From NCBI GenBank assembly GCA_014654705.1, contig JACVZY010000027.1, forward strand, positions 1 through 64,000: 64,000 bases of DNA, written 5' to 3'. Shown here in pieces: positions 19,386 through 64,000 of this stretch (position 1 is the stretch's first letter; the number at the start of each line of letters is the position of its first letter). Below the pieces are notes generated by a model that saw only the letters and a list, made by a program, of their open reading frames with translations, did no database searches and was not told the DNA's origin. The DNA comes from Ignavibacteria bacterium (GTDB lineage: Bacteria > Bacteroidota > Ignavibacteria > Kapaibacteriales > UBA4661). Position numbers and translations under genes: made by a program.

Positions 19386-19720
19386 GGTCTCCACTGATTG
19401 TACAACTCTTTTGGGTACTATGCTCTCATTGCATGGCATGACGCTAATAAGAAGGAATTATTGTAGAGAAAATTTGCTGCTGTCATAAATAAAATGCAAA
19501 TGAAAAAGCCTGATTGCCAAGATTAAGTCTGCATGAAGAAATATTCGTAGGCGTTTTGTTGAGAGGATTTCGATAAATGGCATACAAATTGAATATCCTC
19601 TTTATGCTTTCAATCGCCAACTTCTCTCAACGCTAAAAGTCAATGTATAAATGCTGAAATATGCGGTTTTGAATGCTATACCGCTTCTGCATAATACTCA
19701 CAGCACAATAGAGGCAATCA
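19386..19720. other. Divergent control region between the HlyD-like gene and ftsK
   Basis: The space holds no credible gene. It must contain promoters for the minus-strand export genes and the plus-strand ftsK. A sigma-54-like element with one changed core base (TGGCATACAAATTGAA, 19578-19593, plus strand) lies about 130 bases before ftsK. GAGG precedes the ftsK ATG by about six bases. No clear TAnnTTTG element was found on either strand. Confidence 0.35.
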
Positions 19721-58862: not shown

Positions 58863-60368
58863 TTAGTCGCCACTTTCACCATTTATTGCTTTGAGCATTT
58901 TCAGCAGACCGGGATAGGAAATTCCAAGATGCCGCGCAGCCTTTGTTTTATTGCCATTATATTTCTGCAACACCTCGCGGATAAGCCGTGCTTTAACGCC
59001 ATCTAATTCATCAAACGTTCCTTCGCGGAAAGTGCTGTGCATAAAAGCTATTTCACTGCCCGTATCTTCTCGTAATGCAGATGAGGAGCTACTTTTCTGA
59101 GGTTGCTCAATCCATGTTGCGACATCGCGCTCGTCGGAATGTTCACCGAATAGACACCAGCGACGAATTACGTTGGAAAGTTGACGGATATTCCCTTCCC
59201 AGCGCTGTTGTTTGAGAACATTCATTACCACAGTAGGTATAGGAACTGCGGAAATTCCAAGCTGCTGTTCATATAATTTGACAAAATGCGCAGTGAGCAC
59301 AGGAAGGTCATCGAGACGCTCCCGAAGCGGTGGCAGGACAAGTTCGACAGCCGCAAGCCGATGATACAAATCCAAGCGTAAAAACCCACCTTCGATAGCC
59401 TCGCTGATAATACGATTAGTGGAGCAAAGGATTTGCACATCTATTGACTTTGCATCAGCAGCGCCGACACGACGTATCATTTGCGACTCCACGACGCGGA
59501 GCAGTTTTGCTTGGAGGGCAAGTGGTATTTCGGTCAATTCATCCAAAAAAATAATCCCGCCATTTGCGACCTCAAAAAGCCCTGCACGAGCTTCACTTGC
59601 TCCGGTAAAGGCTCCTTTTTCATATCCAAAAAGCTCTGATTCAAAGAGTGATGGCGAAAGAGCAGCACAGTTCACCGCCACAAAAGGCTTGTTTGCACGT
59701 GTACCATGCTGCCGGATGTACTGCGCCATCATTTCTTTACCGGTGCCGCTTTCTCCACGAATAAGAGCATTGATACTATGCTGCCCGACTTTATCGGCTT
59801 GAGCAAGGCATTTTTGCAAAACCGAAGACTCACCAATAAGCCCTAACGTTTCAACTTTGATACGTTTATTGAGTTCGCGATGAAGAATAGTATTTTCAGT
59901 TTGCAAACGCTCACGAAACCGTTGATTTTCCTCTTCAAGGTCAAGCATTTTCACCGCTCGACCAACGGCGTGAAGTAATTCTCCTTCGCGATACGGTTTT
60001 TTCAGAAAATCGTCCACCCCCAAGCGCAAGGCACGAATAACAGAGGATTCGTCGGCATATCCCGTAACAATAATGAATTTACTGGATACGTTGCGTTTTT
60101 TACATTCTCCTATAAACTCCAATCCATCCATCACCGGTAGCTTTACATCACTAATAATGACATGGAATCGGCTTGTTTCCAATGCTTTGAGTGCTTTGTT
60201 TGCGGTAGGGAAGCCTTGCACGTCATAACCCTTACGCCGTAAAGTGGTCAAAATATTTTGCAGCGCAAACGTATCATCTTCCACTACCAGCACTGATGCT
60301 TGTTTGTCGGTAGATATTTCCGAGCTTGTGAAGTGAGAAGCATCGGGTGAAATTTGTTCGATAGTCAT
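58863..60368 (-). CDS. Sigma-54-dependent response regulator (NtrC type)
   Basis: A 501-residue regulator with an N-terminal receiver domain (phosphorylatable Asp74 in IISDVKLPVMDG), an AAA+ sigma-54 activation domain (Walker A RGESGTGKEMM, the sigma-54 contact loop YEKGAFTGAS, Walker B GGIIFLDELTEI, R-finger region) and a Fis-type helix-turn-helix (KARLIREVLQKYNGNKTKAARHLGISYPGLLKML). Once phosphorylated it would open sigma-54 promoters. It follows the kinase gene by 54 bases. The ATG is chosen over a TTG nine codons upstream. Its targets are unknown; divergently placed DUF4402 genes are the nearest candidates. Confidence 0.93.
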   Translation of the reverse strand: MTIEQISPDASHFTSSEISTDKQASVLVVEDDTFALQNILTTLRRKGYDVQGFPTANKALKALETSRFHVIISDVKLPVMDGLEFIGECKKRNVSSKFIIVTGYADESSVIRALRLGVDDFLKKPYREGELLHAVGRAVKMLDLEEENQRFRERLQTENTILHRELNKRIKVETLGLIGESSVLQKCLAQADKVGQHSINALIRGESGTGKEMMAQYIRQHGTRANKPFVAVNCAALSPSLFESELFGYEKGAFTGASEARAGLFEVANGGIIFLDELTEIPLALQAKLLRVVESQMIRRVGAADAKSIDVQILCSTNRIISEAIEGGFLRLDLYHRLAAVELVLPPLRERLDDLPVLTAHFVKLYEQQLGISAVPIPTVVMNVLKQQRWEGNIRQLSNVIRRWCLFGEHSDERDVATWIEQPQKSSSSSALREDTGSEIAFMHSTFREGTFDELDGVKARLIREVLQKYNGNKTKAARHLGISYPGLLKMLKAINGESGD

Positions 60369-60422
60369 AGAAATGAAGAAGATAGAAATTTTCAATCAAA
60401 GATTTGATAAGACCTAAATTTC

Positions 60423-61568
60423 TCACAACTCTGCGAGTGGAAGAATCATAACAGCTTCGGCTCCCCCGCCCTCGCGGTTGCGCATAACAATACCACCACC
60501 AGCTTTCTTGAGAAGTGAACGTGTCACCCACAGACCAAGCCCCGTGCCTTTACCTTGTTCTTTGGAGGTGACAAAGGCATCGAAAAGCCGACTTTCGACC
60601 TCAGCCGAAATGCCGGGACCGTTATCTTGTATAGTGATGATGCAATGCGACGTATCGGCTTCTGCCCGAAGCGAAATATGACGCTCTTTCTCTTCTGTAT
60701 TTTCAATTAATGCATCGCGAGCATTCATCAGTACGTTTGTGAGTGCCTGACTGAGTGCGGCATAGCTCAGTGCAACAGGACGGGTTTCTTCGACAACAAA
60801 TTTATACTCAATTCCATACAACTCCAATTGCTTCTTGTACAATCGCAACCAACCATCAACAACTTCGACGACATGACAGGTCTCATTTTCACCGGGAGTT
60901 CTCGCCGATATTAATAGGTCTGCGACAACCGCACGTGAATGAAGTGCCGCCCGAATAAGAAGATCAATATCTTCCTGTAACTCTTCGTGAGCTGGCATTA
61001 CATTCTCAAGAATGGCTTGTACACGTTCGGCAGCATTCAGGATTGCGCCAAGCGGGCTGTTTAATTCATGTGCTACACTACCAGCAATGGCACCGAGAGT
61101 GGCGAGTTTTTCGGTTTGAATGAGCGCTGCATTAGTTTCCACAATTTGCTGTTGTTGTCGTTTTAAGCGACGTTCCAAATGCAGAATACGCTCTCCCGCA
61201 CGAATGCACACCCGTAACTCGCTTTGGTCGAAAGGTTTGCCCAAAAAATCATCTGCACCTGCTTCCATACCAGCTATCATATCGGCTTTTTCAGTATTGG
61301 CTGTAAGAAGAATAAAGTAGATATACCGATCAAATGATGCGGCGCGAATGCGGTTACATAACTCCAATCCGTTCATGACAGGCATAGACCAATCGCTCAC
61401 AACAAGACTGATGTCGGATTGCAGGAGTATATTCCACGCCTCTTCACCGTCACGCGCCTGCACCACCGTATAACGCCATGAACGCAAAAAAGCGGAAAGG
61501 CTCAACCGAATTTCCTCGGCATCATCGACAATAAGAATTTTTTGACCACTTGTGCTTTCACGACTCAT
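60423..61568 (-). CDS. Hybrid receiver-histidine kinase
   Basis: A 381-residue soluble kinase with the receiver domain first (Asp59 in VVSDWSMPVMNG), a short coiled coil (about 130-155), then HisKA (phosphorylated His167 in GSVAHELNSPLGAI) and a complete HATPase domain (NVLMNARDALI, DNGPGI, GTGLGLWVTRSLLKKAGG). It has no transmembrane segment or sensor domain, so it is probably itself controlled through phosphorylation of the receiver by another kinase, and then passes phosphate to the sigma-54 regulator encoded next. No separate receptor kinase is in the window. Confidence 0.93.
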   Translation of the reverse strand: MSRESTSGQKILIVDDAEEIRLSLSAFLRSWRYTVVQARDGEEAWNILLQSDISLVVSDWSMPVMNGLELCNRIRAASFDRYIYFILLTANTEKADMIAGMEAGADDFLGKPFDQSELRVCIRAGERILHLERRLKRQQQQIVETNAALIQTEKLATLGAIAGSVAHELNSPLGAILNAAERVQAILENVMPAHEELQEDIDLLIRAALHSRAVVADLLISARTPGENETCHVVEVVDGWLRLYKKQLELYGIEYKFVVEETRPVALSYAALSQALTNVLMNARDALIENTEEKERHISLRAEADTSHCIITIQDNGPGISAEVESRLFDAFVTSKEQGKGTGLGLWVTRSLLKKAGGGIVMRNREGGGAEAVMILPLAEL

Positions 61569-62053
61569 GCGTACTCCTGTTTTAATATGCCTACTTTATA
61601 GTTATACAAAGTATAAAATTCTTCTACTTTTTATCGTTTTTGAAGTCCCACATAATTTTCTTCTATTTTGCACAAAAATCATGTAAATACTTAAAAAACA
61701 ATGAATTACAGATGATGCAGAACAGCCAATACCTTTTTGGCACACAAATGCCACTAGAGAGAATATCAACGACAATAAATGAAACAAAAAAGATACAGCT
61801 AACTACTTTTACAACAATATATTACGCAAGAAATATGCGCCGATTTAACCGAATTTACAGAAGCCCGCCAAGCACAGGATTCAACAAGACTTATGTTGGC
61901 AGTTACGGCAATAGCGCTGTTATCCAATCTTTTATAGCGGAACATTTGCTATCAATAAATATATGTAATTCATCGACAAAACCGTATAGAAACTCATAAA
62001 CAAACACAAATACTTTTCTCTTTTTTAACTCTCTTTCTTTTTGAGGTATTACC
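61569..62053. other. Divergent control region between the kinase and the DUF4402 genes
   Basis: The 485 bases are AT-rich and hold no convincing gene. Between the two divergent units an inverted repeat TGGCA/TGCCA (61738-61742 and 61749-61753) resembles a sigma-54 promoter shortened by one base (TGGCAC, five bases, TGCC). No exact TAnnTTTG element was found on either strand. The last 59 bases (from 61995) are the leader that is repeated before the second DUF4402 copy. Confidence 0.5.
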
Positions 62054-62542
62054 ATGAAACGCATCCTTTTCCTTCTCGCAGCAGTCGTCTTCGTTACGGC
62101 TCCTTTCTTGTCCTTCGCACAAAATAGTGCTTCGGAAAACGCCTTAGTCTCAGCGCGAGTTATCTCCTCTCTGAGCATCGCCAAAAACAAAGACCTTGAT
62201 TTTGGCAAAGTAGCCCAAGGTGTCGGCGCGGTAGCAATCGCCCCCGACAACACCAAAGCCGTCAAATTCACCATCACTGGTGAGCCGAGCGAAAGCATCA
62301 AAGTAACCTTCACTTCGCCAGCAAATCTTGTTTCCGGCTCGAACACACTTCCTTTCACCTCCAACGTCAAAGCCAACACTGCGGATGTCGTCGCAAGCGC
62401 TGCGGCTCTGACTTCTGGCTCAAATCTCAGCCTTGGCTCGGACGGCAAAGCCTACGTGTACTTGGGCGGTAGTATCAACGTCGGAGCAACACAACCTCGC
62501 GGCAGTTATACTGGTACTTTCGCCATCAACGTCGAGTATTAA
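62054..62542 (+). CDS. Exported DUF4402 protein, copy 1
   Basis: A 162-residue protein with a signal peptide (residues 1-22, ends SFAQ) and a beta-rich DUF4402 domain: VSARVISSLSIAKNKDLDFGKVAQG, VKFTITGEPSESIKVTF, and YVYLGGSINVGATQPRGSYTG plus TFAINVEY at the end. The fold resembles small pilin-like or surface subunits; the family has no proven function. GAGG lies about ten bases before the ATG. It is followed directly by a near-identical copy. Its product differs from copy 2 only at residues 119-120 (LS here, MD there). Confidence 0.92.
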   Translation: MKRILFLLAAVVFVTAPFLSFAQNSASENALVSARVISSLSIAKNKDLDFGKVAQGVGAVAIAPDNTKAVKFTITGEPSESIKVTFTSPANLVSGSNTLPFTSNVKANTADVVASAAALTSGSNLSLGSDGKAYVYLGGSINVGATQPRGSYTGTFAINVEY

Positions 62543-62603
62543 CATAAACAAACACAAATACTTTTTTCTTTTCTTTAACTCTCTTTCTTTTTGAGGTATT
62601 ACC

Positions 62604-63092
62604 ATGAAACGCATCCTTTTCCTTCTCGCAGCAGTCGTCTTCGTTACGGCTCCTTTCTTGTCCTTCGCACAAAATAGTGCTTCGGAAAACGCCTTAGTCT
62701 CAGCGCGAGTTATCTCCTCTCTGAGCATCGCCAAAAACAAAGACCTTGATTTTGGCAAAGTAGCCCAAGGTGTCGGCGCGGTAGCAATCGCCCCCGACAA
62801 CACCAAAGCCGTCAAATTCACCATCACTGGTGAGCCGAGCGAAAGCATCAAAGTAACCTTCACTTCGCCAGCAAATCTTGTTTCCGGCTCGAACACACTT
62901 CCTTTCACCTCCAACGTCAAAGCCAACACTGCGGATGTCGTCGCAAGCGCTGCGGCTCTCACTTCTGGCTCAAATATGGATTTAGGCTCGGATGGTAAAG
63001 CGTATGTGTACTTGGGCGGCAGCATCAACGTCGGAGCAACGCAGCCACGCGGCAGCTATACCGGTACTTTCGCTATCAACGTCGAATACTAA
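62604..63092 (+). CDS. Exported DUF4402 protein, copy 2
   Basis: A second 162-residue DUF4402 protein, equal to copy 1 except Met-Asp in place of Leu-Ser at residues 119-120. The first 356 coding bases are identical to copy 1, while the end has 22 base changes that are otherwise silent, so selection keeps the protein sequence. It has its own copy of the leader and ends at a strong terminator (63113-63148), so both copies may come from one mRNA starting before copy 1. Confidence 0.92.
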   Translation: MKRILFLLAAVVFVTAPFLSFAQNSASENALVSARVISSLSIAKNKDLDFGKVAQGVGAVAIAPDNTKAVKFTITGEPSESIKVTFTSPANLVSGSNTLPFTSNVKANTADVVASAAALTSGSNMDLGSDGKAYVYLGGSINVGATQPRGSYTGTFAINVEY

Positions 63093-63112: not shown

Positions 63113-63148
63113 ACGGCGTGGACGCGGATGGCGTTCACGCCGTTTTTA
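63113..63148 (+). terminator. Intrinsic terminator after the DUF4402 pair
   Basis: ACGGCGTG at 63113-63120 and ACGC at 63122-63125 pair with GCGT at 63131-63134 and CACGCCGT at 63136-63143, leaving one mismatch and a five-base loop; five or more T residues follow. Confidence 0.9.
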
Positions 63149-63186: not shown

Positions 63187-63735
63187 ATGAAACCCATGAC
63201 TGCTTTTTCCCAGCTTGCTGTCTGTATGATGTGTGTAGGATTTTTTTTCATAACAGCACAGAACACAAGCCTCGCACAGCAGCAAATACCTACGGGAATA
63301 TCCGCAAATGCCCCTGCTCCACAAAACATTTTGTCGCTTTTGCGCATACAACGCCTTACAGACCTTGCTTGCGGCGTTACGATACTTGGTTTTCCCAAGG
63401 AAATTCGCTTTAGCGATGCGGCTGCTGCACGCTTTCGGATTATGGCTCCCCCTGCATCTGAAATTTTGGTAGCACTTGCTTTACCTCTACGGCTGCTTTG
63501 CGACAAGGCAGAAACCCCTTTAACCTTTGGTGCAGCCAGCGCTGCATGGTCTGAACGTGATTCTCCCTCACTGGGCGTTACCACTTTTAATCCGATGTTA
63601 CCACAACGCCTTAAAGTACCTGCATCGGGAGTCATCTTTATTTGGATTGGCTGTTCGGTGTCTCCCGCAAAAACATTGCGCAGTGGTCGCTATACCGCAT
63701 TAGTGCAGGTGGAAGCAACTCTGATGAATCGCTGA
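63187..63735 (+). CDS. Diverged DUF4402-like exported protein
   Basis: A 182-residue protein with a signal peptide (residues 1-30, ends SLAQ). The rest follows the DUF4402 layout: an early LLRIQRLTDLACGVTIL strand pair, a RFRIMAPPASEILVALALPLRL segment, and a Gly/Tyr ending RSGRYTALVQVEATL. Identity to the tandem pair is low, so the relationship is inferred from pattern. It lies past the terminator of the pair and should have its own promoter, which I could not find. It may be a minor or tip subunit if the pair are major subunits; this is speculative. Confidence 0.65.
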   Translation: MKPMTAFSQLAVCMMCVGFFFITAQNTSLAQQQIPTGISANAPAPQNILSLLRIQRLTDLACGVTILGFPKEIRFSDAAAARFRIMAPPASEILVALALPLRLLCDKAETPLTFGAASAAWSERDSPSLGVTTFNPMLPQRLKVPASGVIFIWIGCSVSPAKTLRSGRYTALVQVEATLMNR

Positions 63736-64000
63736 AATGAAAACGTATTCTTGCGCAGCAATTCAAACTTTATACACAATATGAATACTTTGTATTTGTT
63801 TTGCATACTGTGTGTTCATTTTGTGAGAATAAATAATTCTGCCTTTGAAAATCGAAGCTGCTATTTGACAAGCACTTACAGGAAAATCATACAGATATTC
63901 TTCTCTTGGCATGATGCTTGAATTTTCTAGGGTATAATAGTGAATGTACATCGTCAACGCGGTAATTCATTCATGATTACGTTGAATATTTTTTTACCAT
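63736..64000. other. AT-rich end of window, possible promoter region
   Basis: No credible gene begins here. Two promoter-like elements are visible on the plus strand: TGGCATGATGCTTGAA (63907-63922), a sigma-54-like match with one core base changed (GA for GC), and TATAAT (about 63933-63938) inside GGGTATAATAG. Both could serve a gene that starts beyond the window. Confidence 0.4.

Follow-up and report, generated by a model that had tools for sequence, protein, structure and literature searches.

Recombination between bacterial paralogues has already been described. Intragenomic gene conversion and concerted evolution of paralogues are documented for rRNA operons (PMC8022953), long-lasting concerted evolution is known for bacterial genes (PMC6053082), and gene conversion between paralogues occurs in the PPE genes of M. 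tuberculosis (PMC12046097). The gene pair analysed here resembles these cases in that, over a bounded tract, the two paralogues are more similar to one another than either is to the orthologue, with older divergence outside it, and the event belongs to a class already known. Unlike the known cases, it concerns a two-gene tandem array of pilin-like genes from the genome of an uncultured Kapabacteria bacterium, with a single tract in one assembly.

The surrounding locus is best compared with archaic and alternative chaperone-usher pili (Csu of Acinetobacter, CFA/I; PMC4654587, PMC9452303), which have the same gene order subunit - chaperone - usher. In fold, the subunit model resembles Csu, FimG, PapA and Caf1, and the usher-like model resembles FimD/PapC. 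Unlike the described pili, the locus has no Pfam match for an usher and no sequence similarity of its subunit to E. coli pilins. It also differs in the C-terminal CarboxypepD_reg/SdrD_B domain of its usher-like protein and in the adjoining sigma-54 regulator genes. A literature search retrieved no paper naming DUF4402, the domain of the subunit, and nothing on the source genome.

Layout of the tandem pair

The window is the whole stretch of 64,000 nt that was analysed (contig JACVZY010000027.1, positions 1 to 64,000). Coordinates refer to the window unless given as contig positions. The source assembly is MAG-like and comprises 5.72 Mb in 118 contigs.

Copy A (62054..62542, plus strand) and copy B (62604..63092, plus strand) are 489-nt open reading frames, each encoding a DUF4402 protein of 162 aa; that of copy A has a signal peptide and a predicted pilin-like beta-sandwich. 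The repeated unit begins at 61995 (CATAAACAAACAC...), and its second occurrence starts at 62543, right behind the stop codon of copy A. Its start is the leader of copy A (61995..62053, plus strand), which is 59 nt long and contains a GAGGT ribosome-binding site. The leader of copy B (62543..62603, plus strand) forms the tandem junction and abuts the stop codon of copy A. Apart from a single substitution and a 2-nt indel within a T-rich stretch, the two leaders are identical. No further DNA copy of the DUF4402 gene was found in the assembly.

Alignment of the open reading frames bore out the sharp boundary described in an earlier, sequence-only reading. Nucleotides 1-356 are identical (62054..62409 in copy A, 62604..62959 in copy B, both plus strand). 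All 22 differences lie within nucleotides 357-486 and hence in the 133-nt divergent 3' part (62410..62542 in copy A, 62960..63092 in copy B, both plus strand). As that reading had also stated, the protein is altered from Leu-Ser to Met-Asp only: 18 codons are changed, and just two of these affect the product, codon 125 (CTC in A, ATG in B; L/M) and codon 126 (AGC in A, GAT in B; S/D). The two proteins share 160 of their 162 residues. Since the leaders nearly match, the homogenised tract measures about 387 nt of exact identity, or about 415 nt with the leader.

Statistics of the identity boundary

A bounded tract of identity lies beside clearly divergent sequence to a degree beyond chance. For 22 randomly placed differences, all 22 of which fall into the last 133 of 489 sites, P is 9e-14. 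Counted at silent sites, copies A and B show no difference among the roughly 90 sites of codons 1-118 and 17.5 differences among the 35 of codons 119-162 (Fisher P ~1e-11); at 95% confidence, silent divergence in the 5' part is at most 3.3%. Conversion tracts were tested for by a GENECONV-like permutation on three sequences (A, B and the orthologue of the congener G007). The longest run of sites with A identical to B comprised 33 of the 71 polymorphic sites and was matched in none of 200,000 shuffles.

Chance clustering of the differences was rejected on the basis of the P value, the silent-site contrast and the permutation. A simple recent duplication was likewise rejected, as a silent-rich divergence of 16% is confined to one end.

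Comparison with a congener

The sole close orthologue used was that of G007, a multi-contig Candidatus Kapaibacterium MAG. This orthologue is without codons 30-57, and the comparison spans codons 58-162. In codons 58-118, copies A and B are identical (dS 0) and each is at dS 1.19 from G007, with 33 nucleotide differences in the 185 nt of the 5' part that were compared. In codons 119-162, dS between A and B is 0.82, and the values to G007 are 1.20 and 1.27; here A and B differ at 22 of 133 nt, A and G007 at 29, and B and G007 at 27. Measured against this one orthologue over codons 58-162, the two copies resemble one another more than they resemble G007 within the tract and show an old split outside it.

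Of the 22 sites that separate the copies, G007 shares the base of A at 9 and that of B at 11, and it matches neither copy at the other 2. From this split it follows that both 3' ends are old and that neither arose recently from the other. The regional contrast in dS indicates that the duplication is old and that only its 5' part was homogenised recently. The orthologue comparison called for by the sequence-only reading therefore dates the two ends apart (dS 0 versus 0.82), and its exclusion of a simple recent duplication holds. That reading had left a choice between homogenised 5' parts and ends of different ancestry. The difference in age between the ends was substantiated, and one orthologue cannot fully separate these two options. 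Strong selection on the protein at the 3' end, which had also been proposed, is supported by the estimates for A and B there (dN 0.048, dS 0.82).

Origin of the mosaic

The preferred explanation, to which we assign a probability of roughly 0.7, is an old tandem duplicate whose 5' part was recently homogenised by gene conversion or by an unequal exchange with the same effect. A DUF4402 pilin-like gene would have been duplicated in tandem long ago, at an age that, judged by the 3' ends, is roughly comparable to that of the divergence from G007. We infer that at least 387 nt of one unit, reaching from the ribosome-binding leader as far as codon 118-119, later overwrote the corresponding part of the other. 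The route would be homologous recombination, either as gene conversion or as two successive unequal crossovers by which a unit was gained and then lost; the product of such crossovers would be indistinguishable from that of conversion. The last 133 nt would have kept their older silent divergence. Because the two proteins are nearly the same, the likeliest role of the pair would be to raise the dose of a single main fibre subunit in a divergent chaperone-usher-like pilus locus.

The near-equal three-way distances of the 3' parts (22, 29, 27) are also what import from a congener would give, and there is no third copy in the genome from which the divergent end could have come. Both observations suit a recent tandem duplication after which one 3' end was replaced by recombination with DNA of a related lineage. 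Such an allelic import requires an unseen donor lineage and an import ending exactly inside the repeat, and the two leader differences suggest that the units are not brand-new duplicates; we regard it as unlikely. Selection at the DNA or RNA level, preserving the 5' identity without recombination, could be considered because the leader and signal peptide are homogenised too. It is scarcely credible, given that the same 5' codons differ from G007 at 60% of silent sites. Constraint on the sequence of the 5' part was accordingly rejected, as codons 58-118 are free to change silently. The idea that one 3' end was donated by a third copy within the genome was rejected as well, no such copy being present in the assembly.

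An effect of assembly was also weighed, in which a short-read assembler collapsed truly different 5' parts into one sequence (bubble popping) or the copy number of the array is wrong. The genome is in 118 contigs, the contigs of G007 break in the same gene, which marks the region as hard to assemble, and an array of more than two units is possible. On the other hand, the same assembler kept the 3' parts apart, and complete identity at about 90 silent sites would put any true 5' divergence far below the 3' value. In addition, one contig crosses both units, and unique flanks fix their order as A-B. This explanation was judged to be quite unlikely, marginally more so than allelic import. Homogenisation of the 5' part of an old duplicate would make the pair a clean, datable case of partial homogenisation between tandem bacterial genes, in which an orthologue shows that the ends are of different age.

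Identity of the subunit

With Pfam PF14352 (DUF4402), a family to which Pfam assigns no function, both copies exceed the curated cut-off by a wide margin (60.3 bits for copy A and 60.5 bits for copy B, cut-off 25.2). An AlphaFold2 model of copy A reached a pLDDT of 77; its core (residues 41-162) folds as a beta-sandwich, and residues 1-33 are of low confidence. The best PDB matches of the model were mostly chaperone-usher pilins (Csu, type 1, P, CFA/I, Caf1), with middling Z scores of about 8. Profile comparison of the subunit with E. coli K-12 pilins gave no sequence match.

Surrounding pilus-like locus

The divergent neighbour of the locus is a receiver/histidine-kinase protein (60423..61568, minus strand), followed by a conserved sigma-54-dependent response regulator (58863..60395, minus strand). 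The intergenic region 5' of copy A (61740-61990) is about 200 nt longer than that of G007 and mostly unalignable with it. Behind copy B lies a strong terminator-like hairpin (63113..63143, plus strand), the stem and position of which are conserved in G007. It precedes the gene for a third secreted protein of 182 aa (63187..63735, plus strand), which is weakly DUF4402-like and has a 57% identical orthologue in G007. This protein had no Pfam match and is possibly a minor or tip subunit. Its similarity to the DUF4402 proteins of G074, a distant relative from another family, is faint (22%).

A sigma-54-type -24/-12 element (TGGCATGATGCTTGAA; 63907..63922, plus strand) is located 5' of the chaperone gene and is conserved in G007. 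A second match to this type of element was seen at 19578-19593. The genes for the PapD-like chaperone (286 aa; contig positions 64013-64873, just past the window end) and the usher-like protein (930 aa; contig positions 64976-67768, beyond the window) were located at L016:4013-7768; the usher-like protein carries the C-terminal domain mentioned above.

Alignment of the chaperone to E. coli K-12 chaperones with hhalign gave an E-value of 3.7e-6 and a probability of 87%, and Pfam PapD_N stayed below its cut-off. By sequence, the product is classed as a PapD-like periplasmic chaperone encoded in the operon. For the usher-like protein, hhalign to E. coli K-12 ushers gave an E-value of 5.6e-4 over 630 columns with a probability of 30%. 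Its structural model is of low confidence (pLDDT 64). Foldseek matched it to FimD/PapC with an E-value of 1e-22 and TM-scores of only 0.2-0.36, and its 18 best matches were all ushers (FimD or PapC). The Pfam usher model PF00577 matched 0 of the 123 genomes of the order. The locus is probably a very divergent chaperone-usher-like system with the DUF4402 pair as its major-subunit genes. It offers a testable function, as pilus subunit of a chaperone-usher-like system, for a domain of unknown function. We consider this divergent pilus locus a more useful by-product than the recombination event, which is neat but ordinary.

Occurrence in other genomes

DUF4402 was present in 63 of 395 sampled genomes of the phylum (about 1 in 6). 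The order DUF4402 - chaperone - usher-like was also found in four other genomes (G007, G016, G024 and G074), all with a kinase nearby and most with a sigma-54 regulator nearby. In a survey of ten genomes of the family, a DUF4402 gene together with an usher-like gene occurred in the source genome and G007 only. Searches of the eight others, two of which are less than 90% complete, returned neither gene.

In G007, one contig stops at nucleotide 87 of the DUF4402 gene and another starts at nucleotide 171, with the flanking synteny kept. The chance of a contig break in that stretch is about 1.3%. A repeat would be a natural cause of a break inside the same gene (low coverage is also possible), and G007 may carry the repeat there too. 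In G074, two DUF4402 genes stand in tandem with a spacing of 565 nt. Their 5' ends and signal peptides are divergent and nucleotides 271-384 are identical, which amounts to a weaker, reversed mosaic; outside the signal peptide, the run test gave a P of 0.02 only. In a survey of about 20 further DUF4402 clusters across the phylum, most adjacent pairs were old, with about 45-65% nucleotide identity and no homogenised tract.

Recurrence of partial homogenisation is suggested by these data. A wider and rather doubtful proposal is that the major-subunit genes of the DUF4402 type undergo recurrent concerted evolution in Kapabacteria, with the source genome, G074 and probably G007 as instances, and are part of an unrecognised, highly divergent Bacteroidota chaperone-usher pathway missed by the standard usher model.

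One further pair came out of the survey of clusters: two neighbouring DUF4402 genes (L052, G469:C322) share 95% identity in their first 60-nt block, 80% in the second and about 55% thereafter, and are possibly another 5' mosaic.
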